A stretch of 64,000 nucleotides of DNA from positions 1-64,000 of the forward strand of contig NZ_QXFL01000006.1 in NCBI RefSeq assembly GCF_003584125.1, in the 5' to 3' direction. This DNA is from Aurantiacibacter zhengii (lineage in GTDB: Bacteria > Pseudomonadota > Alphaproteobacteria > Sphingomonadales > Sphingomonadaceae). How positions within the stretch are numbered: the first letter of the stretch is position 1; every line of letters begins with the position of its first letter. The position numbers and the translations under genes were made by a program. This document shows, piece after piece, positions 9,428-61,466 of this stretch. The notes beneath the pieces are model-generated. The model saw only the letters and a program-made list of their open reading frames with translations, was not told the origin of the DNA and did not search any database.

Positions 9428-9662
9428 TGGGTGCGATTCCTTTCCTACCGATTTAGCCCATCGCTAGGCCACTGGGTCATGAATGAAAACCGCCAATCTG
9501 GGGGAATTTGTGCAATTGCGAAAGGGTGTGTGACGCCTCCGGGACTTTCGCCTCTGAACAGTGTTCCAGGTGTTCCACATTCCACGACGCCGGTCGACGA
9601 CAAGCGCCCTTTTGCAAGCAGGTGCTTGACGCGGGAGCGCTCTCGCAACAAGACCGCCGCCG

Positions 9663-37176: not shown

Positions 37177-37232
37177 CCAGCTTTCCGCAAGTCTCAGCCC
37201 GACGAAGCGCGGTTCTATGGATCGTCCAGGAA

Positions 37233-37249
37233 TGGTAGCGGAGGAGGGA
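37233..37249 (-). other. Attachment-site remnant resembling a tRNA 3' end
   Basis: On the minus strand the 17 bases TCCCTCCTCCGCTACCA look like the last T-arm bases, acceptor strand and CCA of a tRNA. No T-loop, anticodon or 5' half is present, so it is not a tRNA gene. Such fragments remain where an island has integrated into a tRNA 3' end. The direct repeat at 37308-37329 is nearby. Confidence 0.45.
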
Positions 37250-37860: not shown

Positions 37861-38532
37861 TCAAAGCCAGGAGATACCAAGATGATTGGCACCGTGCGCA
37901 AGCTCGCCGCCCAGAAATCCCTGCACCAGCACTAGAGCGGCCATGGCAAAGATTGCGGCGCGAAGCGCGGTCCGGCTCGCGGAAGCACGGCTCGCCAGAT
38001 AGGCCATCGCCAGACCGAGGACCGCGATCAGCATCCCGTTCCATCGATGGACCTGCATGACGGCATCGCCGCCGAACCAAAGGCCGGTGTGGATCCATCC
38101 GAACAGGACTGCGACGACTGCGCCGATTGCTCCGCCGTGGACGAGTACGCGCACCGCGCTCTCAAGCCCTGCATCTTTCCGGCGCATGACGAACAACTCG
38201 GTGGCAGCAGCCATGAGAAACAGGGCGATCGGGAAGTGGATGGTCGCCGGATGCAGTTTTTTCAGGGCGGCGATGACGCCGGAATCGCCCTCATCAGCAT
38301 GGCCACCAGCCTCGTCATGGCCTCCACTTGCTTCGTCGTGCGCGGCTGAGGGCTCGCCGACCGCTCCGCCGTCGCCCATCTGCGCCATGGCCGCCTGGTC
38401 ATGCGCATCGCCATTCGCGGCGGCAGGCGCGGCGCTCGTCTCTTCGCCATGCTTTTCGTCGCCATGAGCCTGAACTGGTCCGACGAAGAGCAAGCTGGCA
38501 GCTACAATAGCCATGAATTGCATTCGTTTCAT
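37861..38532 (-). CDS. DUF2231-like membrane protein with His-rich N-terminus
   Basis: 223 residues. A signal peptide ending near VQAHGD is followed by ~65 residues with repeated His, Asp and Glu (HDEASGGHDEAGGHADE). The rest has four membrane helices, starting with KLHPATIHFPIALFLMAAATELF, a DUF2231 hallmark. The acidic His-rich stretch suggests periplasmic metal binding. Its role in metal handling is inferred from the location. Confidence 0.75.
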   Translation of the reverse strand: MKRMQFMAIVAASLLFVGPVQAHGDEKHGEETSAAPAAANGDAHDQAAMAQMGDGGAVGEPSAAHDEASGGHDEAGGHADEGDSGVIAALKKLHPATIHFPIALFLMAAATELFVMRRKDAGLESAVRVLVHGGAIGAVVAVLFGWIHTGLWFGGDAVMQVHRWNGMLIAVLGLAMAYLASRASASRTALRAAIFAMAALVLVQGFLGGELAHGANHLGISWL

Positions 38533-38746: not shown

Positions 38747-39136
38747 CTAACCGTCTTGCGCCATGTTCTGGTGAGCCGCCATCTGCTTCATCATATCGTG
38801 CATCATCATCATGCGCTGGTGACAGGCCGCCATCATATCGGCGTTGTCCCCCTGCATCATGCCCGCCATGTGTTCCTGCATCGCTGTGCGGTGCTCGGCC
38901 ATCAGCCTTTGGCGTTCGGCAGGATCGCTCGCCGCGTGGGCCTGCTGCATCAGCGCGCGCATTTCAGCCATCTTCTCGCGATGGGCAGCCATAGCGTCGG
39001 AATCCTGCATCGTGTGGCCAGCGTGATCCTGCTGCTGTGCCACAGCCTGAGCTCCGTGCTCATGCTGTTCCTGGGCCGTCGCCGGAGTGGCTGTCAGGCC
39101 AGTGGCGAGAATGAGAGCTAGAGCTGTCCGTTTCAC
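38747..39136 (-). CDS. Spy-like periplasmic Met/His-rich protein
   Basis: 129 residues from GTG 39136, which has AAGGAAA at the right distance; ATG 39160 is an in-frame alternative. A signal peptide (KRTALALILATGLTATPATAQ) precedes a helical region with AAHREKMAEMRALMQQAH and the C-terminus CHQRMMMMHDMMKQMAAH. This resembles the Spy/CpxP-type metal-binding helical proteins. It has the ECF-type promoter motif upstream (39189-39218). Confidence 0.7.
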   Translation of the reverse strand: MKRTALALILATGLTATPATAQEQHEHGAQAVAQQQDHAGHTMQDSDAMAAHREKMAEMRALMQQAHAASDPAERQRLMAEHRTAMQEHMAGMMQGDNADMMAACHQRMMMMHDMMKQMAAHQNMAQDG

Positions 39137-39188: not shown

Positions 39189-39218
39189 TTTACGCAGCCA
39201 ACATCTGTTCCCCTCAAA
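39189..39218 (-). promoter_or_regulatory. ECF-type promoter upstream of the Spy-like gene
   Basis: On the minus strand TTTGAGGG (39218-39211) and TGCGTAAA (39196-39189) are 14 bases apart. The same pair with the same spacing is found before the DUF411 gene. It is 53 bases upstream of GTG 39136. Confidence 0.7.
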
Positions 39219-39314
39219 CAATTTCCGCGCCCACCGGAGACGGCTGAGCCGATGGCACAGCCGGTTGCAGGAATGGTGTTTTTCGGTCACCCTTTTTGAC
39301 CGAAGCCGGTCGAG

Positions 39315-39650
39315 ATGAATGGGACAGATCATGGTGACAACAGAGCCGTCGGAGAAGCAGTCGTGAGCACGGTCAATGAGGACGGCAGCTGGGACATTCC
39401 GGAGCCCGATCATGCCGAGCTGGTGCAAATGCGCATTCGCCTCATAACTCTCGAGAACATAGTTCTCGGCCTTTTGTCCGGGGCCAGCGATGAACAGATC
39501 GACCAGATCAGAAAGCGTGCGGACATGATCGAACCACGCCCCGAGGCGAGCCGGCATCCGCTTACCGAACTGGCAGCAGGTGACATGCGTAAGTTTCTCG
39601 AACGCGCTGCTCGCATGGCCGAGGCGGAGGGCCGCGAAAACCATGACTGA
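39315..39650 (+). CDS. Hypothetical protein
   Basis: 111 residues, acidic, no membrane segment or signal. The region VQMRIRLITLENIVLGLLSGASDEQIDQIRKRADMI (landmark only) looks like a small helical bundle. It has no strong ribosome-binding site at 39315. A GTG at 39363 is in frame. I do not recognise the family. Confidence 0.45.
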   Translation: MNGTDHGDNRAVGEAVVSTVNEDGSWDIPEPDHAELVQMRIRLITLENIVLGLLSGASDEQIDQIRKRADMIEPRPEASRHPLTELAAGDMRKFLERAARMAEAEGRENHD

Positions 39651-39743
39651 TCCAGGCTTTGGGGCAGCAAAGGCGCTATGCAGGACGTGGAAATCCGGCC
39701 CGCCGCTATTTCCTTGCGCACATCATTCCGGCGTATCCGCAGC

Positions 39744-40184
39744 ATGACTAGAACTCATTGGCTCATCTTTGTTTGCGGGAGCCTGATCGCGTTCGTCTGG
39801 GAGATTTTCCAGATGCCGTTTTTCAAGCCGGGAAATCTCGAGCCTTATGAGCAGACCATTCGCTGCGGCATTGCAAGCCTAGGCGATGGCGTGATCCTGC
39901 TAACAGCTTATAGCCTTGCTGCATTGCGCGGCGGGCGCGCGTGGCTCTGGCAAGCCGCCAAAATGCCCTATGCGATCTATTTCGGCTTCGGGCTTGTCGT
40001 CGCCATCGCCGTCGAAATGATCGCCACATCGCTTCCGGCAGAAAGCTTCGTGAGCTGGCGCTACAGCGAGTTGATGCCGCACGAGCCAGTGACGGGGTTG
40101 GCGCTGATCCCGATCGCGATGTGGACGATCGTGCCTGCGCTCACGATCCTTCTGGTCCGCTTTGCCCGAGCCGAACCTGATTAA
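39744..40184 (+). CDS. Hypothetical membrane protein
   Basis: 146 residues from ATG 39744, giving four predicted helices beginning WLIFVCGSLIAFVWEIFQ. An extension to 39678 is possible but adds no hydrophobic sequence. No known motif. It converges with the PepSY gene at 13 bases. Confidence 0.55.
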   Translation: MTRTHWLIFVCGSLIAFVWEIFQMPFFKPGNLEPYEQTIRCGIASLGDGVILLTAYSLAALRGGRAWLWQAAKMPYAIYFGFGLVVAIAVEMIATSLPAESFVSWRYSELMPHEPVTGLALIPIAMWTIVPALTILLVRFARAEPD

Positions 40185-40197
40185 ACTGGGAGCGGCT

Positions 40198-40932
40198 TCA
40201 GGGTGCGTTCGGCACATGTTTCGCCCGCCGCCTGATTCTGGGAAACCGGTTCGCAAGCAGGACAAAGCCCGAAACCGCGATAATCGTCCCGCCGATCCCG
40301 AACAATAGCAGCCACCAGCTGTTGATGCGGTCGCGCTGCGTCCAGTCCATGATATGCAGCCCCCAGACAAAATCGAACAGGCGCCAGGTGTCGCTGCGGG
40401 CAGCGAGCACCGAGCCACTCGATGCATCGATGTAGACGCGGGTATTGTCCTCATCGCCGTAGGTGATCTGCCACGCCGGAAACGGACCCCGGAATTCGGT
40501 CCCGACAGCATCTTCGATGAGGCGCGTGGTCGCTATGGTGGTTGGTGGCCCGGTCCAGGCATAGCGAGCGATGGCCTGTGCGCTTGCAGCGGGAAGAGGC
40601 GAAAGGAGAATGCCGCTGTCCGGGTCGCGGAGCGTGACGCTTCCATCGTCCCGGCGGACCTCGGTTACGGCCCTGCCGCCGACCGCGCGCGTCGCAAGGG
40701 AAACCACCCCCTCGCTGCTATCGAGCCAATGGGGCATGACAGCATCAGCGGGCAGGACCTCCGGCGCGCGCGAAACGACATGTTCGGACCGAACCTCTTC
40801 GATGTCGAGAAACGACATCAGCGCCCCGGTGATCATCCACAGGAGCACTTGGACGCCGACAAAGATCGCCAGCCATTTGTGAAGCTTGCTGCCCAGCACA
40901 TGAAGACGCAGCTTGAAAGAGCGTGTCGCCAA
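40198..40932 (-). CDS. PepSY-associated membrane protein
   Basis: 244 residues from TTG 40932, with GGGGA upstream. An N-terminal helix (KLHKWLAIFVGVQVLLWMITGALMS, given as landmark) and a C-terminal helix before RFPRIRRR flank a periplasmic PepSY-like domain. The pattern LHKW and FVWGLHIMDW is typical of PepSY_TM proteins, some of which act as ferric reductases or copper-handling proteins. It is the last gene of the sigma-copAB operon. Confidence 0.8.
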   Translation of the reverse strand: MATRSFKLRLHVLGSKLHKWLAIFVGVQVLLWMITGALMSFLDIEEVRSEHVVSRAPEVLPADAVMPHWLDSSEGVVSLATRAVGGRAVTEVRRDDGSVTLRDPDSGILLSPLPAASAQAIARYAWTGPPTTIATTRLIEDAVGTEFRGPFPAWQITYGDEDNTRVYIDASSGSVLAARSDTWRLFDFVWGLHIMDWTQRDRINSWWLLLFGIGGTIIAVSGFVLLANRFPRIRRRAKHVPNAP

Positions 40933-40952
40933 TCGGTGTTCCCCCGATCAGA

Positions 40953-41513
40953 TCAGTTGTTACGCGGTGCGCGTGACGATGAATGGTACTGAACGATCTT
41001 CCAGCCATCTGCATCATGGGCGAGGACCGAGGTCGCAACCCCTTCGCGGTCGATTACGCGACCGTCGGCCAGTTCGATCCGATAGGTGTACGTTTCGCGG
41101 CCATACGCCATATGTCCCATCCGGGTGACTGCGAGCGTCGGTTCGCCGAAGGTGAAGCTGGTTATTGCATCGAGTTCCGGTCCCAGGTGATGCTCCATGT
41201 AATGCGTGAAGCTGCCTTCCGCCTTGCCGTTTTCGTAAATGAAGGATTCCTGGGCAAACAGCGCAGCCATGGCCTCTGCATCGCGCGACGTCAGGGCATC
41301 GCGATATGATGTCAGAATTGCTTCTGCCCCAGCAACGTCATCGTTCATCGCAGCCATATGCTCGGCATGGTTCATGCCCTGCTCCGTATGATCCATCGGC
41401 GTTGATACCGAATGTTCCGAATGCGCCGAATGGTCCATGGATTGTGCCAGGGCGGGAGTGCCCCCTGCAGCCAAGGCCAGGGCGACCGCGCTTAGAGATA
41501 GTCTCGTTCTCAT
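40953..41513 (-). CDS. SnoaL/DUF4440-like periplasmic protein
   Basis: 186 residues from ATG 41513 with AAGGAAA upstream. A signal peptide ends at TPALAQ. Residues about 25-60 are His/Met-rich (SMDHSAHSEHSVSTPMDH), resembling the repeats in CopB. The C-terminal two thirds is an NTF2-like fold with SYRDALTSRDAEAMAALFA and DGWKIVQYHSSS. No catalytic motif. It lies 16 bases after copB. Confidence 0.8.
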   Translation of the reverse strand: MRTRLSLSAVALALAAGGTPALAQSMDHSAHSEHSVSTPMDHTEQGMNHAEHMAAMNDDVAGAEAILTSYRDALTSRDAEAMAALFAQESFIYENGKAEGSFTHYMEHHLGPELDAITSFTFGEPTLAVTRMGHMAYGRETYTYRIELADGRVIDREGVATSVLAHDADGWKIVQYHSSSRAPRNN

Positions 41514-41529
41514 TGTATATTTCCTTCAC

Positions 41530-42732
41530 TTAAAACCAGAATCGCAAGCCCACGACGTAATTCATCACGCTGGGGTCTTCCCCTGCGGCGCGGGCAAAAT
41601 CGGCGCCCTCACCGATCCGCCACTCCTGGGAGACGCCGACATAGGGCGCGAATTCGCGTGCGAACTCGTAGCGAAGACGCAGACCTGCCTCGATCCGGTC
41701 GAGGCCAGCGCCAATGCCGAGTTCGGGAATATCCTGAGCCGAAAGAGCGATTTCGGCTCGCGGCTGGAGGATCAGCCGCTGCGTGATGCGCTGATCAAGC
41801 TCGCCCTCAAAGCGCGCCGTTACATCGCCCTTGCTCGATACGAACGCCGCGACGTCGATCTCGAACTGGTAAGGGGCAATGCCCTGGACACCGATGACCG
41901 CATGGGTGCGCTCGGGCCCCGTCAGATCCTGACGGACACCGGCTTGGAAATCGAAGAAGGGTGCGATGGCGCGGCTCCAGAGCGCCTGGACCTCGGCGCC
42001 CTCGACGGGCTCACCGAAGCTGCCTTCACCCTCGGATTTGAACCAGAACTTGTCGATATCACCGCCATAATATCCCTGGATATCCCAAAGATATCCATCA
42101 GCTCCTTCGCGTGCGCGATACTCAAGGCGGTCGCCCTGAAACCAGAAGCGCATCCCGCCGTCGGTCTCACGGACAAGTTCGCGCCGCGCTTCGTTCATGG
42201 CTTCCTCGCCCCAGATCGCAACCGCCGCGCGCGCGGGACCGCTCCCAGCTTCGGGAGGAGGCGGCAGCAGCGGGATATCGTCGTTCGAGCCCATCTGCAT
42301 CGCCGAATGGTCCATGCCCTGCATGTCCTGCGATCCCATCTGCCCATGGTTCATCTGGCTGTGATCCATCTGCCCATGGTCCATCGACGAGCTGCTGGCT
42401 TCCGCCTGCCCCATGTCGCCGCGGTTCATTTGCGAATGATCCATCGCGCCTTCGTCAGGCCTGCCCTGCGGCATCGAACCATGATCCATCGTCGAATGGT
42501 CCATCGCAACTTCAGGCTGGGCAGCGGGGCCGCAAGCCCCCTCTGCTACCGGATGCCCCATCGCGCGATGGCGCTCGGCTGCCGCCTCGCACTTTGTTTT
42601 GGCGTCAGCCTGCGCCTCGGCGCTCTGCTGCGGTTCCACTGGCGAGTGACCCGCATGCTGCGCCGCGGCGGGGGAGGCGAGAACCGAACCCGCGGCGGCC
42701 GAGGCAAGCAGGCTGATGATAGATATCTTCAT
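41530..42732 (-). CDS. copB: Copper resistance protein CopB
   Basis: Outer-membrane copper-binding beta-barrel that works with CopA. 400 residues. A signal peptide is followed by about 100 residues of Met/His repeats (MDHSTMDHGSM, MDHGQMDHSQMNHGQM). The barrel runs from WGEEAMNEARREL to the end VGLRFWF, ending in Phe as outer-membrane proteins do. ATGA overlap with copA. Confidence 0.93.
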   Translation of the reverse strand: MKISIISLLASAAAGSVLASPAAAQHAGHSPVEPQQSAEAQADAKTKCEAAAERHRAMGHPVAEGACGPAAQPEVAMDHSTMDHGSMPQGRPDEGAMDHSQMNRGDMGQAEASSSSMDHGQMDHSQMNHGQMGSQDMQGMDHSAMQMGSNDDIPLLPPPPEAGSGPARAAVAIWGEEAMNEARRELVRETDGGMRFWFQGDRLEYRAREGADGYLWDIQGYYGGDIDKFWFKSEGEGSFGEPVEGAEVQALWSRAIAPFFDFQAGVRQDLTGPERTHAVIGVQGIAPYQFEIDVAAFVSSKGDVTARFEGELDQRITQRLILQPRAEIALSAQDIPELGIGAGLDRIEAGLRLRYEFAREFAPYVGVSQEWRIGEGADFARAAGEDPSVMNYVVGLRFWF

Positions 42733-44576
42733 GCGCCCTCTCCGGCAGGATTGGCAACCGTGACGATCTGAAACATCCCGGCATGCATGTGATAGAGAAG
42801 GTGGCAGTGGAAGGCCCAGTCGCCCGGCTCGTCCGCCGTCAGGTCGAACTGCGCGCTGCCACCCGGTTGCAGGATAACCGTGTGCTTCAGTGGTTGACGG
42901 TTTGGAGGTGCACCGTTGACCAGCTCGAAGAAGTGTCCGTGCAGATGGATCGGGTGTGCCATCATCGTGTCATTGATCAGCTTTACCCGCACGCGTTCAT
43001 TATAGGCAAAGCGGATCGGCTCCTCGGAGACGGCGGAGAATTTCTTGCCGTCGAACGACCACATGTAGCGTTCCATGTTCCCGGTAAGATGGATTTCCAT
43101 CCGGCGCGAAGGGCTTCGCGAGTCCTTGTTTGGTGTCAGCGCGCGCAGCTTGCGATAGTCGAGGGTACGGTGCGGGACATCGGCAAGGCCAATCCCGGGA
43201 TCGCCCATCCGGTCGACCGGGTTCATCGACACCATGTCGATGCCCGGTCCGACCTTCACATCGGGAGGCAATAGCGAGGTATCGCGCATCTGCATGCCTC
43301 CCGCCATGCCAGCCATTCCGGTCATCTCCGCCGAACCGCCATCCATACCGGACATCCCGTCCGCGCCAGCCGCTCCGCTCGATCCGTGATCCATTCCGGC
43401 CATCCCGCCAGCGCCATGGTCCATGCCGGCCATACCAGCATCGCCGCCGGAGCCATGGTCCATACCGCTCATGCCCATATCGGCCATAGTGAGCAGCGGG
43501 GGATCGCGCAGCGGCGGGATGGCCGCACGCGCGCCGGGCGTGCTCGCCAGCGTTGCGATGCCCATACCTGACCGATCCATCGACTCCGCCATCAGCGTGT
43601 AAGCCTGCTGCTCACCCGGCGTCACCACGACGTCGTAGGTTTCCGCGACGCCGATCTGGAACTCGTCCACTTCGACCGGCTCGACGTTCTGCCCGTCGGC
43701 TTGAACCACGGTCATCGGCAGGCCGGGAATGCGAATATTGAAAAATGTCATGGCGCCGGCATTGATGAACCGAAGCCGCACACGCTCGCCCGGACGGAAA
43801 AGATATTCCAGATTGTCGAGCGGTCCATGACCGTTCAGCAGATATGTATAAGTTGCGCTCGACACATCGAGGATGTCGGTTGGCATCATGCGCATTCTGG
43901 CCCACATCCGGCGATCCTCGCCCGAGAGCGGATAGTCGTCGGTCCAGGTATTCTGGTTGTAGTTGAAGTAGCCTTCGCCCTTCTTGAGCTTGTCGAATAT
44001 CGTGTGGGGCGACATTTCGCTGAACTCGCTCAGCACCACGATATATTCGCGGTCGGCCTGCACCGGATCGGGACCTGCGGGATCGACCACGATCGGACCA
44101 TAATGACCGGCCTGTTCCTGCAGCCCGCTATGCGAATGCCACCAATAGGTGCCTGCCTGCCGCACGGGAAATTCCGCTGTGAAGGTCTCGCCCGGCTTCA
44201 CGCCGGGAAAACTTACGCCCGGCACGCCATCGAGCTGGAACGGCACGAGCAGGCCATGCCAGTGGATCGAGGTGTCTTCCTCAAGCTGGTTATGGACGTT
44301 GAGGCGGACGGTGGTCCCTTCGCGCAGGCGAAGGAGTGGCCCAGGGATGCTGCCATTGACGGCAATCGCGCCGCCACGCCTGTTGCCGGTGGAGAAAGCC
44401 GAGCGCGCAACCGTCAGATCGATATTCGGTCCGGTCGCCTCATCGATACCTCGCCGGGCGGCCCCGGAGAGCAGATCTCCGCCTCGCGCCCAAGCGGGAA
44501 CGGCACCGCCCAGGCCAAGCAGGCCCAGCCCGCTGGCACTTGTTCCAAGAAATTTTCGGCGATTGACGGCAGGCAT
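42729..44576 (-). CDS. copA: Copper resistance multicopper oxidase CopA (PcoA type)
   Basis: Periplasmic oxidase for Cu(I) and copper storage. I start at ATG 44576 because AGGAG lies six bases upstream; ATG 44597 has none. This gives 615 residues. The Tat signal is NRRKFLGTSASGLGLLG. Copper-site motifs are IHWHG, WWHSHSG, HPIHLHG and HCHLLYHMHAGMF. The region about 365-440 is a Met/His-rich insert (GMDHGSGGDAGMAGMDHG and others), typical of PcoA/CopA. A sigma-type promoter overlaps the end of the sigma gene upstream. Confidence 0.95.
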   Translation of the reverse strand: MPAVNRRKFLGTSASGLGLLGLGGAVPAWARGGDLLSGAARRGIDEATGPNIDLTVARSAFSTGNRRGGAIAVNGSIPGPLLRLREGTTVRLNVHNQLEEDTSIHWHGLLVPFQLDGVPGVSFPGVKPGETFTAEFPVRQAGTYWWHSHSGLQEQAGHYGPIVVDPAGPDPVQADREYIVVLSEFSEMSPHTIFDKLKKGEGYFNYNQNTWTDDYPLSGEDRRMWARMRMMPTDILDVSSATYTYLLNGHGPLDNLEYLFRPGERVRLRFINAGAMTFFNIRIPGLPMTVVQADGQNVEPVEVDEFQIGVAETYDVVVTPGEQQAYTLMAESMDRSGMGIATLASTPGARAAIPPLRDPPLLTMADMGMSGMDHGSGGDAGMAGMDHGAGGMAGMDHGSSGAAGADGMSGMDGGSAEMTGMAGMAGGMQMRDTSLLPPDVKVGPGIDMVSMNPVDRMGDPGIGLADVPHRTLDYRKLRALTPNKDSRSPSRRMEIHLTGNMERYMWSFDGKKFSAVSEEPIRFAYNERVRVKLINDTMMAHPIHLHGHFFELVNGAPPNRQPLKHTVILQPGGSAQFDLTADEPGDWAFHCHLLYHMHAGMFQIVTVANPAGEGA

Positions 44577-44607
44577 AGGGGGCTCCTGAGAAGGCATATA
44601 CCGTCAC

Positions 44608-44636
44608 TTACGCGGCCACCTGCGCTACCCCTCAAA
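44608..44636 (-). promoter_or_regulatory. ECF-type internal promoter for copA
   Basis: TTTGAGGG (44636-44629) and CGCGTAAG from 44614 are 14 bases apart on the minus strand. The first box lies within the last sense codons of the sigma factor gene. It allows copA to be transcribed apart from the anti-sigma operon. Confidence 0.65.
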
Positions 44637-45191
44637 GTTTTCGAACCGCTCCTTCAGCCGGTTGCGCGCACGATAGATGCGCGTCTCGACAGCTTTCTCC
44701 GTGGTGCCGAGCAGCTCGGCAGCCTCGGCCTGGCTGTATCCCTCGACAGTGACCAGCACGAGCGCCTCTTGCAGCCGCACCGGCAAGCGCCCGATTTCGG
44801 CCTGGACCAGCCGCAGCTGTTCGCGGGCTCCGGCAACATTTTCGGGATTGGGGGCATCGTCGGCAACGGCGTCGGCTTCCCGCCCGTCCGGCAAACTAAG
44901 GAAGCCCGCAACTTTCCTCCGGCGGAGCCTGTCGCGGCACCGGTTGAGAACGATTGTCGTCAAATAAGGACCGATGGGCTTGCTCGGATCGAGGCGATGC
45001 CGTGTCAGCCAGACCGAAGCGAGACTGTCCTGGACGACATCTTGGGCCCGCGAGGGTGAACCCAGCATACGCGTGGCGAGCGCAATCAACCTAGCGATCT
45101 CATGCTCGACCAGAGCTGTGAACGCCCGCTTGTCACCGGCTATCGCCCGCCCGATCAGAGCTTCGTTCGAAGTGTCATCCACCACTGCCAA
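44625..45191 (-). CDS. ECF RNA polymerase sigma factor (CnrH-like)
   Basis: 188 residues. Sigma region 2 is in FTALVEHEIARLIALATRML and QDVVQDSLASVW; region 4 is QEALVLVTVEGYSQAEAAELL with the helix-turn-helix GTTEKAVETRIYRARNRL. TTG is the only reasonable start. It follows the CnrX-like gene by 6 bases. The anti-sigma and sensor genes before it mirror the cnrYXH order of Cupriavidus. It is the candidate factor for the TTTGAGGG motif. Confidence 0.92.
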   Translation of the reverse strand: MAVVDDTSNEALIGRAIAGDKRAFTALVEHEIARLIALATRMLGSPSRAQDVVQDSLASVWLTRHRLDPSKPIGPYLTTIVLNRCRDRLRRRKVAGFLSLPDGREADAVADDAPNPENVAGAREQLRLVQAEIGRLPVRLQEALVLVTVEGYSQAEAAELLGTTEKAVETRIYRARNRLKERFENFEG

Positions 45192-45197
45192 GGCTGA

Positions 45198-45632
45198 TCA
45201 GTCACGCGGATCGCGCGTGAGGGCCGCGGACACTTTCCGGTCGAACTGAAGCTGCTGATCGGGATCGAGAATTTCCCGCATGTCGAAGACGTGGCGCACG
45301 GTCGCTTTTTGCAAATCGCCCATGCGCGCATGCACCTCGTCGATCGCGGCACTGACTTCGGGCCCGTATTCGTGCTCGGTTTCCATTGCCTGGGCGAGCT
45401 GGGCGTTGGCTGCGCGCGCAGAGGCTTCGAGCCTTGCCTGTTCTACCGCGAAACGCGCTTCGAGCGCGTCGAGCCGCTGCTCCTGATCAGCCGTGAGCGA
45501 GAGTTCATCGTGCACGAACTGGTGCAGGCTACCCTCGGCATCGTTGTTGGACCAGCGATCGGCGGCAAGCGCTCCGAGGCATCCGGCGAGCGCCGCCAGC
45601 AGGACCGCGAGGACAAGGTGAAACTTCTTCAA
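45198..45632 (-). CDS. CnrX-like periplasmic metal sensor
   Basis: 144 residues. One N-terminal membrane segment (about 6-24), then an all-helical periplasmic domain. CnrX binds Ni or Co with His42, His46, Glu63, His119 and Met123; the corresponding residues here are His37, His41, Glu58, His114 and Met118 with identical spacing (4, 17, 56, 4). This is direct sequence comparison from memory of CnrX. The sensed metal may differ, since the targets are copper genes. The start is TTG. Confidence 0.88.
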   Translation of the reverse strand: MKKFHLVLAVLLAALAGCLGALAADRWSNNDAEGSLHQFVHDELSLTADQEQRLDALEARFAVEQARLEASARAANAQLAQAMETEHEYGPEVSAAIDEVHARMGDLQKATVRHVFDMREILDPDQQLQFDRKVSAALTRDPRD

Positions 45633-45635
45633 CGC

Positions 45636-45932
45636 CTATGACCCCACATGAAGCAAAGCAGCGGGCGACAGGGATTCTCCGCCAACGAGGCTCTCGCCAA
45701 CAATTTCTGTAGGAGCGCCATATTCGGACGGCCATCCGCTGGTCCCTGCGCCTGCCGCCAGGCCGACGACAAACAGACCGGCGAACAAGGCCATTCTGCG
45801 TCGCTGATCGGCAATTTCGCCAAGCTGTCCTGCGCGCTGCCAGACGCCGTTCATGAAGTCGGGCGGCACGTCGCCAGCCTCCTGCGACGCCATCGTGCCG
45901 AGCATCGCATCGAGTGTCTGATTATCACGCAT
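45636..45932 (-). CDS. Anti-sigma factor, CnrY-like
   Basis: 98 residues from ATG 45932. One membrane helix (about 47-64, MALFAGLFVVGLAAGAG) separates a cytoplasmic head of ~45 residues from a short periplasmic tail. The head would bind the sigma factor. Similarity to CnrY is by size, topology and gene order, not by a motif. 3 bases separate it from the CnrX-like gene. Confidence 0.65.
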   Translation of the reverse strand: MRDNQTLDAMLGTMASQEAGDVPPDFMNGVWQRAGQLGEIADQRRRMALFAGLFVVGLAAGAGTSGWPSEYGAPTEIVGESLVGGESLSPAALLHVGS

Positions 45933-45960
45933 CCCTTGCTCCTGTCGGTTGCACGGTTCC

Positions 45961-45990
45961 TATACGCGACACTTCGCGCAAACCCTCAAG
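45961..45990 (-). promoter_or_regulatory. ECF-type promoter of the anti-sigma/sensor/sigma operon
   Basis: CTTGAGGG (45990-45983) and CGCGTATA (45968-45961) are 14 bases apart on the minus strand, 28 bases before the ATG at 45932. The -35 box is one half of the palindrome at 45983-46002, shared with the oppositely directed promoter. Confidence 0.75.
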
Positions 45991-46002
45991 ATAATTTGAG
46001 GG
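45983..46002. promoter_or_regulatory. Palindrome made of two back-to-back -35 boxes
   Basis: CCCTCAAGATAATTTGAGGG has 7-bp arms and a 6-base centre. Each arm is the -35 box of one of two divergent promoters (45961-45990 minus; 45995-46024 plus). It also might bind a dimeric regulator. Confidence 0.65.
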
Positions 46003-46024
46003 CAAGAAGCAATTGATGCGTAAA
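45995..46024 (+). promoter_or_regulatory. ECF-type promoter upstream of the DUF411 gene
   Basis: TTTGAGGG (45995-46002) and TGCGTAAA (46017-46024) are 14 bases apart on the plus strand. The transcript would have a leader of about 97 bases before ATG 46129. Confidence 0.72.
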
Positions 46025-46128
46025 GGCATTGAGTCAAAAGCACGCGTCGTTTGTCGGCGCAGAATTTGGGCGGACACATTCTGGCAAAGTCATTCTGCTC
46101 GGCGCGGCCTCAGGAAAGGCAAATGTAA

Positions 46129-46596
46129 ATGAGTTTCATCAATCCATCAAAACCGTTCAGTCGTTCGCTGGCGGCTTCGCTCCTCCTCGCCCTTGCAGCC
46201 TGCTCGAATGCGGCCCAGGCCGCGACATACACGATGTACCGCGACGCAGGGTGCGGGTGCTGTCTTAACTGGGCCGGTCACGTAGAACACGGGCTCGAAG
46301 CGGAGGTCGCCTCGGTCGACTCCGACGACATGGCTGCACTAAAGACAGCCAGGGGTGTACCGCAGGATCTGTGGTCGTGCCACACGATGGAAGTCGATGG
46401 CTATATCATCGAAGGCCACGTGCCGGCCGATGCCGTCGCGAAGCTATTACGCGAACGCCCCGAAGGAGTGGCAGGCCTGGCCGTGCCCGGAATGCCGCTT
46501 GGCTCGCCCGGGATGGAACTCGGGGACCAGGTGCAGCCCTATGATGTCATCGCCTTCGGCCCAGGCGGGCGGAGCGTGTTCGCATCCTACCCGTGA
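46129..46596 (+). CDS. DUF411 metal-binding protein
   Basis: 155 residues from ATG 46129, AGGAAAG upstream. A signal peptide with lipobox LAAC. DUF411 body has RDAGCGCCLNWAGHVEH (Cys-x-Cys-Cys), VPQDLWSCHTMEVDGYIIEGHVP (landmark) and PGMPLGSPGME. Cys and Met positions support copper binding in the periplasm. Confidence 0.88.
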   Translation: MSFINPSKPFSRSLAASLLLALAACSNAAQAATYTMYRDAGCGCCLNWAGHVEHGLEAEVASVDSDDMAALKTARGVPQDLWSCHTMEVDGYIIEGHVPADAVAKLLRERPEGVAGLAVPGMPLGSPGMELGDQVQPYDVIAFGPGGRSVFASYP

Positions 46597-46639
46597 ATAT
46601 GGGCAGCCCTTTTTGCGCCAACTCTGACGGAGGACCATC

Positions 46640-46915
46640 ATGTCGGACTATTCGGTCAAAACCTCAATTTTCATATGGGGCTGGACACTCAGCCTCTTCC
46701 TGCTTTTCAGCTACCTGATCTGCATCGGTTTCGGCCTGCTCGCGCCCGAACAGGCGCACATGCACGAAGCGTGGGCGCCGCTGCTTCCCGGTTTCGAGTG
46801 GCTGACCCTCTCGGGCTTTCTGGCAGGCGCTCTTGGAAGTTTTTTGTATGGTTGGTATATTGCTTTAATCGCGGTGCCGCTTTTCCGATATTTTCAGAAG
46901 CGTTTCAGTCGATAG
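46640..46915 (+). CDS. Two-segment membrane protein, DUF5676-like
   Basis: 91 residues, GGAGG upstream of the ATG. Two to three helices and the pattern LICIGFGLL, WAPLLPGFEW and FLYGWYIALIAVPLF, as in DUF5676 proteins often found in metal-resistance clusters. Downstream of the DUF411 gene by 43 bases. Function unknown. Confidence 0.75.
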   Translation: MSDYSVKTSIFIWGWTLSLFLLFSYLICIGFGLLAPEQAHMHEAWAPLLPGFEWLTLSGFLAGALGSFLYGWYIALIAVPLFRYFQKRFSR

Positions 46916-47077
46916 ACAGAGCTTGTCGCGGTAACTTGGTCCAAGAGGGGCAAGGCCTCGTCTGGCTCATTTCGATCGCATATTATTACTGGAGCTAGAG
47001 CCATTCCCAGAACTCCGTCCCAAGGAGAGAGGCGATCCCTGTTAGTTCACGTCGCCATCGGCGCTGTTCTGGGTGTA

Positions 47078-47815
47078 GTGATTCTTCACCCGCTCACGAC
47101 GCTCGTCTTTTGGTACGAGTTTGGTGCCTTGGCCTTTGCCGACCAAGACAGCGCACTCAGCTTCATAATCGACCGGACTCTCTCCGCGTTTGCGTTCGAA
47201 ATGTTTGCAATGAGCTTGATATATGCCGCGATCGGCGGCGCGATCGGACTGGGTTTTGGAGTGTATCATGTTCGGCTCGTGCACGAGCGGTCCAGAGTTC
47301 GCTTTCTGGAACGCGAACTCAATGAAGAACTTCCATTACTAATAGCTCGCGGCGAAAGCGAGCAGCTGGAATTCAAATCTTCCTTCCGTTGGGACAGGCG
47401 TCAGGAGAAAGTCAACCGCAGCTTGCAGCAAGTCATCGTCAAAACCCTGGCGGGGTTCCTCAACCAAGAGGGCGGCACTCTCCTTATCGGTGTCGAAGAT
47501 GATGGCAGCATCGCGGGCATCGAGGCGGACATGCAAACGCTTAAGCCCGCCAACCAGGATGGCTTCGAACGTTTATTGATGGACACAGCAAAAGAGGGTC
47601 TTGGAGGACACGCGTGTGCTCTGATCCATTGTAGGTTCCACAAACTCGAGGAAAAGATCGTTTGCCGAGTTATTGTGGAGAAGAGCTTGGAGCCGATCTA
47701 TTTTTCCGAAGGGAGCGTGGCCCGGTTCATGCTGCGAGCAGGCAATAGCACGCGTGAGCTCGATGTGCGCGAAGCTCAGGCTTATCTCCAGCATCGCGGG
47801 AAAGTGAGCATCTAA
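47078..47815 (+). CDS. AlbA_2/Schlafen-type domain protein with membrane anchor
   Basis: 245 residues if started at GTG 47078. The frame is open a further 13 codons to CTG 47039, adding hydrophobic sequence and having AAGGAGAG about 10 bases upstream, so the true start may be CTG. One or two N-terminal helices precede an AlbA_2 domain (ESEQLEFKSSFRWD, FLNQEGGTLLIGVEDDGSIAGIE), found in ATP-dependent or nucleic-acid-binding regulators. Its role in the metal island is unclear. Confidence 0.75.
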   Translation: MILHPLTTLVFWYEFGALAFADQDSALSFIIDRTLSAFAFEMFAMSLIYAAIGGAIGLGFGVYHVRLVHERSRVRFLERELNEELPLLIARGESEQLEFKSSFRWDRRQEKVNRSLQQVIVKTLAGFLNQEGGTLLIGVEDDGSIAGIEADMQTLKPANQDGFERLLMDTAKEGLGGHACALIHCRFHKLEEKIVCRVIVEKSLEPIYFSEGSVARFMLRAGNSTRELDVREAQAYLQHRGKVSI

Positions 47816-47923
47816 CCGCTGGTCTGTGGGACAGCACGCGTGTTCGGAGCGCTTTGTCGATCGGCTCAGTTCCTGCAAATTTATGATGCGGTTGGGGCTT
47901 CGCCCCGCCACATACTCAAAAAT

Positions 47924-47953
47924 ATTGAGGGATGAGCCCCGACCGAACGTACT
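47924..47953 (+). promoter_or_regulatory. Weak ECF-type promoter upstream of the permease
   Basis: ATTGAGGG and AACGTACT are 14 bases apart. TTGAGGG and CGTA fit the consensus at the right spacing, but the flanking bases differ. It lies about 50 bases before TTG 48002. Confidence 0.45.
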
Positions 47954-48001
47954 GTCCGGCATGATCTTTCTTGAACGGGAGACCATCGACAGGGGAAAGT
48001 C

Positions 48002-49354
48002 TTGCAAGACCATGAGCACGAGAATCAAAGCGAAACAGCTGGCTCGATAACCCTGCTGGGCGGCGTGGCGATGGGAACCGGCGTCATGATCGGTGCCGGC
48101 ATATTCGCGCTGACCGGGCAGATCGCCGAGCTTGCCGGTCCGCTCTTCCCCTTATCCTTCATCGCTGGCGCGCTGGTAACCTCGCTGGCGGCGTACAGCT
48201 ATATCAAGATGTCGAACAAATGGCCGTCTTCGGGCGGCATCGCGATGATCTTGCAGAAAGCATACGGACCCGGCGTGATCGCCGCCTCTGCCTCGCTCCT
48301 AATGGCGCTGTCGATGGTGATTAACGAGAGCCTCGTGGCCCGCACCTTTGCCACTTACGCGCTGCGCCCGTTCGGCCTCGAAAGCAGCGGGTGGCTCGTT
48401 TCTCTCGCAGCGCTTGCCGTCATCATTTTCGCCTATCTCGTCAATGCAGCGGGCAACAGGTCGGTAAGCGGCTTCTCGCTTATCATGTCCGCCATCAAGA
48501 TCGGCGGCATCGCGCTGTTCGCAGTCGCCGCGATCTTGGCCAGCGGTTTTTCATCAGGCGCATTTTCGCAGCCCGTCTCGCTGACCAATGCAGAAGCCCT
48601 GCTCGCCTCGGTTGCTTTCTCGATCCTCGCCTTCAAGGGCTTCACCACGATTACCAATAGCGGCGGCGAAATCGTCGACCCGCACAAGAATGTCGGCCGG
48701 ACGATCATGATCTCGATCGCGGTCTGTATCGTGATCTATCTGCTTGTCGCAGTGGCGGTGGGTTCGAGCCTGAGCATATCCGAGATCGTCGAGGCGCGCG
48801 ATTATTCGCTCGCAGCAGCGGCGCGTCCGGCGCTGGGAGAACTGGGCTTCTATTTCACCGTCGCGATCGCGATCGCCGCAACGACTTCGGGCGTGATCGC
48901 GAGCGTATTTGCCGTGTCGCGCATGCTTGCGATGCTGACCGACATGAAGATGATCCCGCACAGCCATTTCGGCATGAGCGGCGGGATACGCAGCCACATG
49001 CTGGTCTATACGGTGGTCATTGCCGGGACGCTTGCCGTCCTGTTCGATCTGTCGCGGATCGCCTCGCTGGGCGCCTTCTTCTACCTCGTCATGGATATGC
49101 TGGTGCACTGGGGCGTCCTGCGTCACCTGCGCAAGGAAGTCGGCGCGCGAGCATCAATACTTCTTACAGCACTCGCGGCAGATGGCGTGGTCCTCGCAGC
49201 CTTTACCGCGGCCAAATTGCGCAGCGATCCTGCCGTTGTCGCCTATGCGGCGATCGGCATCGTCGCGGTGTTCGTGGGGGAATGGATCTACCTCTCGCGC
49301 AATTCCGAAGCGCCCGCTTCTCACAAAGATGATCGGTCAGGAGAGAAGAGTTGA
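48002..49354 (+). CDS. APC family amino-acid permease
   Basis: 450 residues from TTG 48002 with AGGGGAAAG just upstream. About 12 membrane helices. The first contains GVMIGAGIFALTGQIAELAG, as in the APC superfamily. Substrate unknown. Its N-terminal tail has His and Glu repeats (QDHEHENQSE). Confidence 0.9.
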   Translation: MQDHEHENQSETAGSITLLGGVAMGTGVMIGAGIFALTGQIAELAGPLFPLSFIAGALVTSLAAYSYIKMSNKWPSSGGIAMILQKAYGPGVIAASASLLMALSMVINESLVARTFATYALRPFGLESSGWLVSLAALAVIIFAYLVNAAGNRSVSGFSLIMSAIKIGGIALFAVAAILASGFSSGAFSQPVSLTNAEALLASVAFSILAFKGFTTITNSGGEIVDPHKNVGRTIMISIAVCIVIYLLVAVAVGSSLSISEIVEARDYSLAAAARPALGELGFYFTVAIAIAATTSGVIASVFAVSRMLAMLTDMKMIPHSHFGMSGGIRSHMLVYTVVIAGTLAVLFDLSRIASLGAFFYLVMDMLVHWGVLRHLRKEVGARASILLTALAADGVVLAAFTAAKLRSDPAVVAYAAIGIVAVFVGEWIYLSRNSEAPASHKDDRSGEKS

Positions 49355-49466
49355 TGGCACCTTCTTCAACCAGCTTTGCCGCTTTTACGCCGGGCTTTTT
49401 CGAAACCGTTTCCCGAAAACCTGAGTTGACGAAGCGAAACGTCAAGAAAAACAGATGGAGCGATTC

Positions 49467-50216
49467 ATGACGACCCGAACAGCGGCGGTCTACCGCATGG
49501 TGATGGAGGACCATGTCTGTCCCTATGGCATCAAGACGGTCGATCTTGTCAAGCGGCAAGGCTTCGAGGTCGACGATCATCACCTGACCAGCAGGGAGGA
49601 AACCGATGCGTTCAAGGACAAGTACGACGTCGAGACCACCCCGCAGACCTTTATCGAAGGCAAGCGCATTGGCGGCTATGACGATGTCCGCGAATTCTTC
49701 GGCAAGAGCCGCTCGCAGCCTGAGGAAGGCGAAACCAGCTATCAGCCGGTCATTGCGATTTTCGCGGTCGCGCTGCTGCTCGCGCTAGGGCTGAGCTGGG
49801 CGTTTTTTGACGACCTCTTCACTGTCCGGGCCGCAGAATGGTTCGTGAGCCTGTCGATGACCCTGCTCGCCGTTCAGAAGCTTCAGGACGTGCGCAGTTT
49901 CTCGACGATGTTCCTCAACTACGACCTGCTCGCACGGCGCTGGGTGCCCTATGGCTTCGTCTACCCGTTCGGCGAAGCCGCTGCCGGCATTCTCATGACC
50001 GCGGGCGCGCTGACCTGGCTCTCGGCCCCGCTGGCATTGTTCATCGGCACAGTCGGCGCTGTCAGCGTCTTCAAGGCTGTCTACATCGACAAGCGCGAGC
50101 TTAAATGCGCCTGCGTGGGCGGCAGCAGCAATGTGCCGCTCGGCTTTGTCTCGCTGACCGAAAATCTGTTCATGATCGGAATGGGTCTGTGGATGGGCGC
50201 GAAGCTTCTCGCATGA
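49467..50216 (+). CDS. Glutaredoxin-MauE fusion membrane protein
   Basis: 249 residues from ATG 49467 with GGAG six bases upstream (MERF at 49455 is less likely). The glutaredoxin domain has DHVCPYG (monothiol CPYG), the cis-Pro motif TTPQTFIEG and GGYDD. After residue 85 follow about four helices of the MauE/DoxX kind, ending in a CACVGG cysteine pair. MauE proteins help form disulfides in the periplasm. Coupled to the next gene by ATGA. Confidence 0.88.
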   Translation: MTTRTAAVYRMVMEDHVCPYGIKTVDLVKRQGFEVDDHHLTSREETDAFKDKYDVETTPQTFIEGKRIGGYDDVREFFGKSRSQPEEGETSYQPVIAIFAVALLLALGLSWAFFDDLFTVRAAEWFVSLSMTLLAVQKLQDVRSFSTMFLNYDLLARRWVPYGFVYPFGEAAAGILMTAGALTWLSAPLALFIGTVGAVSVFKAVYIDKRELKCACVGGSSNVPLGFVSLTENLFMIGMGLWMGAKLLA

Positions 50217-50626
50217 TCACCGCGCTCCTTCTCTCCGTCTTTCTGTTCCTCTCGGCTGTCGCTTCGCACCTTGCCATTCTGGGTGTCGGTCACCGGCTTC
50301 TCGACCGGCGCCGCGATACGCAGGCAAAGCTTGCCGTTTCGCTGATCGTGCTCGCGTCGCATTTCCTCGTGGCGATCCTTTTTGCCGCAGGTTTCTGGCT
50401 GGGCGCGCAATGGGGCCTGGGAGGTTTCGACAAGGCGCCTTCCATGGACTGGATGGACTACTTCTATTTCTCGCTCATCAACGTGACCACACTGGGCCTG
50501 GGCGACATTTATCCGACCGAGCACCTGAGAGTCCTGGCCGGCGTCGAGGCCCTCACCGGCTTCGCTCTCATCAGCTGCTCGGCGCAGCTATTCTGGACCA
50601 TGATGCACAAAGGAGAAAAAGCATGA
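50213..50626 (+). CDS. Ion-channel-family two-helix protein
   Basis: 137 residues from ATG 50213 overlapping the previous stop. A pore-loop signature NVTTLGLGDIYPTE resembles the K+ selectivity filter (TxGxGD), with two or three membrane helices. It may be a K+ channel subunit or a degenerate form. Stop overlaps the DUF305 start. Confidence 0.8.
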   Translation: MITALLLSVFLFLSAVASHLAILGVGHRLLDRRRDTQAKLAVSLIVLASHFLVAILFAAGFWLGAQWGLGGFDKAPSMDWMDYFYFSLINVTTLGLGDIYPTEHLRVLAGVEALTGFALISCSAQLFWTMMHKGEKA

Positions 50627-51150
50627 CTGAAAAGACGACCCACTCGGACAAGGGAGGGGGCGGCAGCTACTGGCGATTCATGGCCATGGTGTCGACCTCG
50701 ACCGTGATCATGTTCTTCCTGATGTATGCCAACACCTTTACCGTCGATGATCTTTTCTGGAGCGAAACGCGCTTCTGGATGATGTTTGTCATGGGCGCGA
50801 TGATGATGGTTGTCATGCTGCTCTTCATGTGGGGCATGTACAAGGACCGGACCAAGAACTTCATTATTCTGGGCGTCGGCGCCTTCGTGTTCGCCCTCGC
50901 GCTGTGGCTGGTGCGCAGCCAGACCACCGTCGACGATACCGAATATATGGCAGCGATGATCCCGCACCACTCGATCGCGATCATGACCAGCGAACGCGCG
51001 AGCCTGAAGGATCCTCGCGTGCGCGAACTCGCTCAGGCCATCATCGTCGCCCAGCGCCGCGAAATCGCCGAGATGAAATATCTCATCGACGATATCGAGC
51101 AGAACGGTCCTCGGACCGAAGAACGCCTGCCCGAGGAGATGCAGCCATGA
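50623..51150 (+). CDS. DUF305 membrane protein
   Basis: 175 residues from ATG 50623 (AGGAG upstream). Three membrane helices with Met-rich segments (FVMGAMMMVVMLLFMWGMY) precede the DUF305 motif DTEYMAAMIPHHSIAIMTSERA. The HH motif is thought to bind metal. ATGA overlap with the lipoprotein. Confidence 0.88.
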   Translation: MTEKTTHSDKGGGGSYWRFMAMVSTSTVIMFFLMYANTFTVDDLFWSETRFWMMFVMGAMMMVVMLLFMWGMYKDRTKNFIILGVGAFVFALALWLVRSQTTVDDTEYMAAMIPHHSIAIMTSERASLKDPRVRELAQAIIVAQRREIAEMKYLIDDIEQNGPRTEERLPEEMQP

Positions 51151-59469: not shown

Positions 59470-59481
59470 CGCCTGTCCTTC

Positions 59482-61026: not shown

Positions 61027-61082
61027 GCTCCTCCTGTTTCGCGATGGGCGGCACCAGATTTGCCTGGCACCGCCCAACCGAT

Positions 61083-61466
61083 TTACTCCTTCGTGATCGA
61101 CGTGATCACACTGCCTTCAGAACCAGTACGAAATTCAAAGGCAATGCCCTCACCGACGCTTACTTCGCTGCGCAGTTGCTCATCGGCTTCGAACGCCATG
61201 GTCATTGCCGGCCATTCGATTGCGGGAACCGGGCCGTGGTCGACGGTGATCGTACCCGCTTCGGCGTCGATGGCGGTGACGGTGCCTTGCGCACTCGCGG
61301 ACTGCATTGCGTTGCCGGTATCCGCCATCGGCATATCCTGGCCGTCCATCATCATTGCATCTTCAGCCATCGGCATGTCCTCCATCTCGGCAGTGTCCTG
61401 GCCAGAATCGCAGGCTGCCAGCGCCAGCGGCGCGGCCAATAGGGTTATGAGGGTTGTGTGACGCAT
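61083..61466 (-). CDS. CusF-like copper-binding lipoprotein
   Basis: 127 residues, AAGGAGAAG upstream. Lipobox LAAC; Met-rich [15 protein letters not shown]; then the CusF-type barrel with the Cu(I) motif around [10 protein letters not shown] (Trp, Met). It passes Cu(I) to the RND pump. Overlaps the pump gene by 22 bases. Confidence 0.88.

Follow-up and report, generated by a model that had tools for sequence, protein, structure and literature searches.

Gene content and predicted promoters of the cluster

The first 64,000 nucleotides of contig NZ_QXFL01000006.1 of Aurantiacibacter zhengii (GCF_003584125.1), hereafter the window, carry a copper-resistance cluster in which the gene of an extracytoplasmic function (ECF) sigma factor lies among five predicted promoters of a single design. 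The regulatory genes stand on the minus strand in the order anti-sigma, sensor, sigma (45932-44625). Y (45636..45932) encodes a 98-aa putative anti-sigma factor with one membrane segment apparent by eye and the position and size of CnrY, X (45198..45632) a CnrX/NccX-like periplasmic heavy-metal sensor (PF13801 Metal_resist, E=4e-16), and H (44625..45191) a CnrH-like ECF sigma factor with Sigma70_r2 and Sigma70_r4_2 domains. They are followed on the same strand by the multicopper oxidase gene copA (42729..44597; TIGR01480, 780 bits), the real start of which is likely ATG 44576, judging from a Shine-Dalgarno-like AGGAG and a twin-arginine (Tat)-like RRKF, both spotted by eye. The copB gene (41530..42732, minus; PF05275, E=9.1e-86) overlaps the end of copA, so both genes would belong to one operon, and the spacing suggests that a SnoaL-like gene (40953-41513, minus) and a PepSY gene (40198-40932, minus) behind copB, both assigned by Pfam, are perhaps part of the same transcript. 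Further along the minus strand lies a gene for a Spy-like, His/Met-rich protein (38747..39136; GTG start at 39136, signal-peptide-like start by eye), for which neither Pfam nor NCBIfam returned a match. The plus strand contributes the genes of a DUF411 protein (46129..46596; PF04214, E=1.6e-26) and of an amino-acid-type permease of the amino acid-polyamine-organocation (APC) superfamily (48002..49354; TTG start; PF13520, E=2.8e-27), whose best PDB match is MJ0609 (ApcT; E=3.7e-34).

All five promoters share the core TTGAGGG-N16-CGTA, with exactly 16 bases between the -35 and -10 boxes. Transcription starts were predicted by transfer from the published start sites of cnrY and cnrC. The promoter of the Y-X-H operon (45961..45990, minus; core 45963-45989) would start transcription at 45954, and the divergent DUF411 promoter (45995..46024, plus; core 45996-46022) at 46031. 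For copA (44607..44636, minus; core 44609-44635) the predicted start is 44600, the -35 box being placed within the last codons of the sigma gene; for the Spy-like gene (39189..39218, minus; core 39191-39217) it is 39182, and for the permease gene (47924..47953, plus; core 47925-47951) 47960. The resulting leaders range from 22 bases (anti-sigma gene) through 24 (copA, if ATG 44576 is used), 42 (permease gene) and 46 (Spy-like gene) to 98 bases (DUF411). The initial annotation had called the distances of the sites to the gene starts suitable. The long DUF411 leader would fit the loss of a methyltransferase gene that is preceded by the divergent site in many relatives.

The core element in the window and in the genome

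The initial annotation had described a motif shared by five places, the one before the permease being weaker. The core matches perfectly at all five, counted over both strands, whereas 300 dinucleotide shuffles of the window gave a mean of 0.017 matches and a maximum of 1. TTGAGGG heptamers occur six times on both strands, and CGTA follows exactly 16 bases on in five of them. The earlier long pattern, TTTGAGGG-N14-YGCGTAWA, searched with up to three mismatches permitted (1.03 matches expected), was found with zero or one mismatch at four places, 39189-39218 (minus), 44607-44636 (minus), 45961-45990 (minus) and 45995-46024 (plus). The permease site (47925-47951, plus) indeed fails this long pattern, from which it departs chiefly on the -10 side, but its -35 box is not weak and its core is as perfect as the other four.

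A scan of the whole genome (3,803,809 bases in 29 contigs, with the reversed pattern as control) yielded eight perfect cores, namely the five of the window cluster and three on contig C27, compared with a single match for the reversed pattern. All eight stand before a gene, which rules out that the motif is as frequent inside genes as in front of them, the outcome that the initial annotation had named as a refutation; the two copA cores, in the window and on C27, additionally overlap the end of a sigma gene. With up to one mismatch, 34 matches were obtained (26 beyond the perfect ones) versus 38 for the control, and as a class the one-mismatch matches are mostly background. Three of the 26 precede cluster or metal genes (C27:46833, C27:52726 and C26:61127); these three were inspected as possible targets, and they look like real or possible ones. 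The last of them is a candidate sixth site of the window (GTGAGGG-N16-CGTA, 61127..61153, minus), located 49 bases upstream of a second gene for a multicopper oxidase (59482-61077). Like the permease sites, it has a C after CGTA.

Contig C27 also carries a second sigma gene, 74% identical to that of the window, and this second module was examined together with its target set at C27:36000-54000. Its perfect cores precede copA, a permease gene and a methyltransferase gene that has DUF411 behind it, while variant sites were found before the anti-sigma gene (TTAAGGG at C27:46833) and 50 bases before a DUF2231 gene (GTGAGGG at C27:52726). In the window, DUF411 and the permease gene are separated by a gene with a Schlafen/AlbA_2 domain (47078-47815); at C27, the same place is taken by a similar sequence with 69% DNA identity (8889-9434 of the examined stretch).

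Recurrence of the sites in related loci

We then turned to related loci, taking the best 80 of 423 from a scan of species genomes (1.54 Mb, titled mostly as Erythrobacteraceae and other sphingomonads). The two boxes of the core were separated by N16 in 221 cases, by N12 in 2 and by none of the other spacings between N10 and N22. At least one perfect core was present in 73 of the 80 loci. When the -35 box was relaxed to RAGGG, 341 matches were obtained at N16, while each of the other spacings between 10 and 22 gave no more than 37, and the N16 variants included TTAAGGG (51 times) and GTGAGGG (28 times). Of 120 relaxed matches other than TTGAGGG, 90 could be assigned, all of them to the same classes of genes as the perfect cores (DUF2231 38, copA 18, anti-sigma 18, permease 11, DUF411 5), and the other 30 include 26 TTAAGGG sites. 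The perfect matches in five stretches of relatives (L146-L150) look like background and were set aside.

Target genes were assigned for 229 sites in 82 loci (the 80 relatives, the window and the C27 locus), 75 of which have a site. The gene behind the site was copA in 61 cases, a permease gene in 46, a methyltransferase gene in 45, an anti-sigma gene in 27, a Spy-like gene in 22, a DUF2231 gene in 16 and DUF411 in 6, the methyltransferase class being assigned by a short motif in the downstream protein and the DUF2231 class being named from the window protein. Of the six sites left unassigned, four are in the anti-sigma position (two identical to an annotated site in locus L136, two similar to it), one is a DUF411 site cut by a contig end (L058), and one precedes a cytochrome c-looking protein. 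Counted as distinct 31-base sites, the classes comprise 19 (copA), 16 (permease), 14 (methyltransferase), 9 (anti-sigma), 8 (Spy-like), 12 (DUF2231) and 1 (DUF411), with 82 distinct sites overall. The permease and the Spy-like gene, which the initial annotation had counted among the targets although they are not usually put with copAB, are recurrent members, with sites in 46 and 22 of the 82 loci (16 and 8 distinct), and 129-aa homologues of the Spy-like protein stand behind the same class of site in loci L142, L143 and L145. In 45 loci it is a methyltransferase gene, in place of DUF411, that lies behind the site.

Two of the classes have a recognizable fine structure. At all 61 copA sites, the -35 box shares bases with the end of the sigma frame, either its last codons or its stop codon; this stop codon begins 1, 8 or 14 bases past the start of TTGAGGG, so that one stretch serves both as coding end and as -35 box. 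At the permease sites, the base following CGTA is C in 46 of 46 cases, as opposed to 2 of 183 at the other sites.

Link between core sites and the sigma gene

In a family sample of 249 genomes, those with a close sigma relative (best E 1.8e-58 or lower; n=43) had a mean of 3.35 core matches, those with a distant one (n=22) 1.50 and those with none (n=184) 0.58, while the means for the reversed control were 0.47, 0.36 and 0.38, respectively. Close-sigma and no-sigma genomes differ with p=3e-19 (Mann-Whitney), and 36 of the 43 close-sigma genomes have at least two core matches. The initial annotation had spoken of a local sigma regulon. This holds insofar as the sites gather at the sigma cluster, but there is a second cluster on C27, and in two genomes (G161 and G164) the Spy-like site is 22.9 kb away from the sigma gene, which means that targets need not adjoin it. 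In a separate case, a perfect core of genome G016 (L141, position 1345), at a distance of about 28 kb from the CnrH-like gene there, lies 35 bases before an open reading frame that by eye resembles another sigma factor; a sigma cascade would be possible, although this is a single unconfirmed case.

Relation of the module to CnrYXH

The best PDB match of H is CnrH (4cxf, E=2.2e-26), well ahead of the next of 14 PDB sequences found at E <= 1e-6 (1.2e-12), and that of X is NccX (4clv, E=2.3e-20), with CnrX also among the closest. The residues of X that align with the CnrX metal ligands H42, H46, E63, H119 and M123 are all conserved, in X as well as in four sensors encoded on plasmids beside cop genes, as far as sequence can tell. 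Y, encoded by the first gene of the Y-X-H operon, matched neither Pfam nor NCBIfam and had no credible relative in the PDB; it can be aligned with its counterparts from four cop-linked plasmid loci and only loosely with CnrY. The same gene order is found on the plasmid of Cupriavidus sp. EM10 (L135) and in five cop-linked plasmid loci. In the latter, the first gene of the module is annotated as hypothetical and the module stands beside copA and copB, in part also beside copC, copD, a copper ATPase or DUF411. Two of the five have APC permeases annotated close to the module-linked cop genes.

The promoter is not of a new kind, since by their sequence the cnrY and cnrC promoters of Cupriavidus carry the same kind of element. 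On the EM10 plasmid it reads TCAAGGG-N16-CGTATA before cnrY and CGAGGGG-N16-CGTATA before cnrC; in the cnrC promoter, GAGG is one base further from CGTATA than in the window sites, whereas cnrY keeps the window spacing. In Cupriavidus metallidurans, transcription starts 24 and 25 bases before cnrY and cnrC, respectively, according to an excerpt of PMC9045368, and, if this is valid for the EM10 plasmid, CGTATA would be positioned at -12 to -7 in both promoters.

A putative mobile island

We aligned 25 of the 80 related loci with the window. From about position 37230 onwards, stretches of 8.9-18 kb (to 46114 in one locus and, in three, to 55191, where the fetched sequence ends) show 99.97-99.98% identity to Parapontixanthobacter aurantiacus, Croceicoccus mobilis and two Citromicrobium records. 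The identity is 97.3-97.6% for Erythrobacter ani and Parerythrobacter lutipelagi. In 15 loci the alignment starts at 37230-37233, with unlike sequence before that point. Here, an att-like 16-base repeat (37234..37249, plus) marks the left end of a putative island, and a direct second copy at C26:128743 lies within a tRNA-Met gene, beside a phage-type integrase gene. We surmise that the cluster begins an island of about 91.5 kb (37234 to C26:128758) putatively inserted in the 3' end of the tRNA-Met gene. A search limited to the PF02534 family of type IV secretion system (T4SS) coupling proteins gave no match on the putative island, the matches being located on C27 and C22.

Beyond the permease, the window encodes a glutaredoxin-MauE protein and a DUF305 protein (49455-51150), and further on a heavy-metal-type P-type ATPase, a multicopper oxidase and an AcrB-type resistance-nodulation-division (RND) pump gene (57139-63997). 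No perfect core precedes either group.

Proposed regulation and alternative explanations

Promoter geometry, tracking with the sigma gene, recurrence before the same gene types and a CnrYXH-like module all point to one metal-responsive sigma factor for at least five transcripts, as the initial annotation had suggested. The term "metal-responsive" is well founded because the sigma gene sits in a CnrYXH-like module. We consider it highly probable that the five window promoters form the regulon of a single CnrYXH-type module, whose sigma factor H would initiate at TTGAGGG-N16-CGTA. By analogy with CnrYXH, the small membrane protein Y would hold H at the membrane in the resting state, and metal binding to the periplasmic sensor X would lead Y to free H. 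Bound to RNA polymerase, H would then transcribe from promoters with a TTGAGGG -35 box, a CGTA -10 box and 16 bases between them. By firing its own Y-X-H operon it would create positive feedback, and it would also fire copAB, probably with the genes behind, DUF411, the Spy-like gene and the permease gene. On C27, the second module likewise has this core next to it. It is thus very probable that a single metal-sensing regulator activates all of these genes, among them that of an amino-acid-type transporter not usually linked to copper. Judging from the target genes, the physiological signal would be copper.

Several observations weigh against this picture. Among the genomes, seven of the 43 with a close sigma gene have zero or one core match (four none, three one), and the 184 without a sigma match total 106 core matches versus 69 for the control, 28 of these genomes having at least two. 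A sigma gene below the cut-off may be present in some of them, as suggested by genome G004 from the genus scan, where three core sites precede copA, copC and a small Y-like gene and the sigma search at 1e-35 gave no match. Among the loci, seven of the 80 have variants such as GTGAGGG, CTGAGGG and TTAAGGG in place of a perfect core. The 80 loci are moreover the best of 423, many of them near-identical, so the counts overstate independence, and all six DUF411 sites are one identical sequence. In the window itself, the DUF2231 gene (37861-38532) has no core site in front, and phmmer finds no similarity of Y to CnrY. Finally, X shares its five ligands with a nickel/cobalt sensor, so that the signal may not be copper.

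This last point leads to the most serious alternative, namely that the module is still a nickel/cobalt sensor and that the copper genes are induced by nickel, cobalt or several metals as a broad metal defence, which we regard as doubtful but worth keeping in sight. The conservation of the CnrX ligand set in the window sensor and in the four cop-linked plasmid sensors speaks for it, as does the role of Met123, which in CnrX is required for the nickel/cobalt signal, zinc being bound without it (excerpt of PMC7689651). An RND pump gene (61445-63997) is located on the same putative island, though without a perfect core. In contrast, the five cop-linked plasmid loci have cop genes beside the module and no RND nickel pump in the stretches shown, and the same ligands might also take copper. 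The targets thus speak for copper, and the ligand set equally for nickel or cobalt.

The remaining alternatives concern the sites rather than the signal. A strict bipartite element could in principle be bound by a repressor or activator instead of a sigma factor; the element is, however, asymmetric, with a fixed spacing of -35 and -10 boxes and a short distance to the gene starts, it matches the CnrH promoters, and it is far commoner in genomes that have the sigma gene, so that we find this explanation very improbable. It is no more probable that these promoters, though real, are served by a different ECF sigma factor of the same cell, since core counts follow the presence of the CnrH-like group and the cores cluster beside a CnrH-like gene at both genomic places, even though, in addition to the two close copies, the genome holds three ECF matches that are more distant. 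As for a chance resemblance of short motifs, the core was derived from the same window sites that support it, and with two mismatches permitted its number in the window is at chance level (12 found, 12.07 expected). Yet neither C27 nor the relatives were used for the derivation, and in the relatives the 221 cores at N16 face 2 at the twelve other spacings between 10 and 22; the genome-wide distribution of the core, its spacing in relatives and the window shuffles refute this explanation, which retains next to no probability.

More tentatively, and with somewhat less than even confidence, we speculate that a CnrYXH-type module which once served nickel efflux was rewired into a copper regulon with several promoters, carried between genera on genomic islands. 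In A. zhengii, two modules with one promoter code would then let two sensors feed about ten pooled promoters (five in the window, three perfect and two variant ones on C27), and the C after CGTA at the permease sites could alter promoter strength or timing.

If the regulon is as proposed, it provides a precise promoter code for copper-resistance loci that recurs across Erythrobacteraceae and other sphingomonads, and it suggests that CnrYXH-type sensing is not restricted to nickel and cobalt. The permease, methyltransferase, DUF411, DUF2231 and Spy-like proteins become added candidates for a role in copper handling, and the presence of two modules in one cell bears directly on cross-talk between sigma factors.

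Comparison with known systems

ECF sigma factors tied to copper are known from several lineages, among them SigF/NrsF of Caulobacter crescentus (ECF16) and CorE of Myxococcus xanthus (ECF44). SigF/NrsF, induced by copper, cadmium and chromate, is likewise an alphaproteobacterial system linked to copper stress, but its regulon consists of DUF692, DUF2282 and DoxX-type genes, its anti-sigma factor is NrsF, and the excerpted report names no CnrX-type sensor (PMC8224329). In the window, Y has no Pfam match and the scanned targets belong to other families. The copper-dependent CorE resembles the window sigma factor in controlling a multicopper oxidase and a copper ATPase, as an excerpt describes (PMC10141476), whereas the window protein lacks the cysteine-rich C-terminal extension of CorE, ending at residue 188 with ERFENFEG, and its gene is preceded by anti-sigma and sensor genes. 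In C. metallidurans, RpoQ/RsqA also pairs an ECF sigma factor and a putative membrane anti-sigma factor with a copper-induced operon; that operon is gigPABT and not copAB, and RpoQ-dependent initiation was not demonstrated there, as far as the excerpted text goes (PMC10304878). The copAB effector genes themselves are shared with CopRS systems, which are under two-component regulation (excerpt of PMC12428095), whereas here an ECF module is the adjacent regulator. Two of the cop-linked plasmid loci have annotated cueR and response-regulator genes, so more than one regulator may act there. Among the literature matches listed, no title or abstract opening dealt with a CnrYXH-type sigma factor controlling copAB.

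The closest counterpart is CnrYXH of C. metallidurans, with which the module shares the Y-X-H order, a sigma factor nearest to CnrH, a sensor nearest to NccX/CnrX with the ligands kept, and a promoter class that is likewise found before the Y operon and directly behind the sigma gene. Unlike cnr, which serves nickel/cobalt efflux by the RND pump cnrCBA, the module has its sites at copAB, DUF411, Spy-like and permease genes, and no perfect core precedes the RND gene of the island; the -35 box is TTGAGGG instead of TCAAGGG or CGAGGGG, and the target promoters are more numerous and duplicated in one genome. The promoter class and the type of module are already known from nickel resistance, but among the literature matches listed none showed them linked to a copper regulon with at least five transcripts, duplicated and mobile. 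The module would work like CnrYXH, yet it is not the nickel system cnr.

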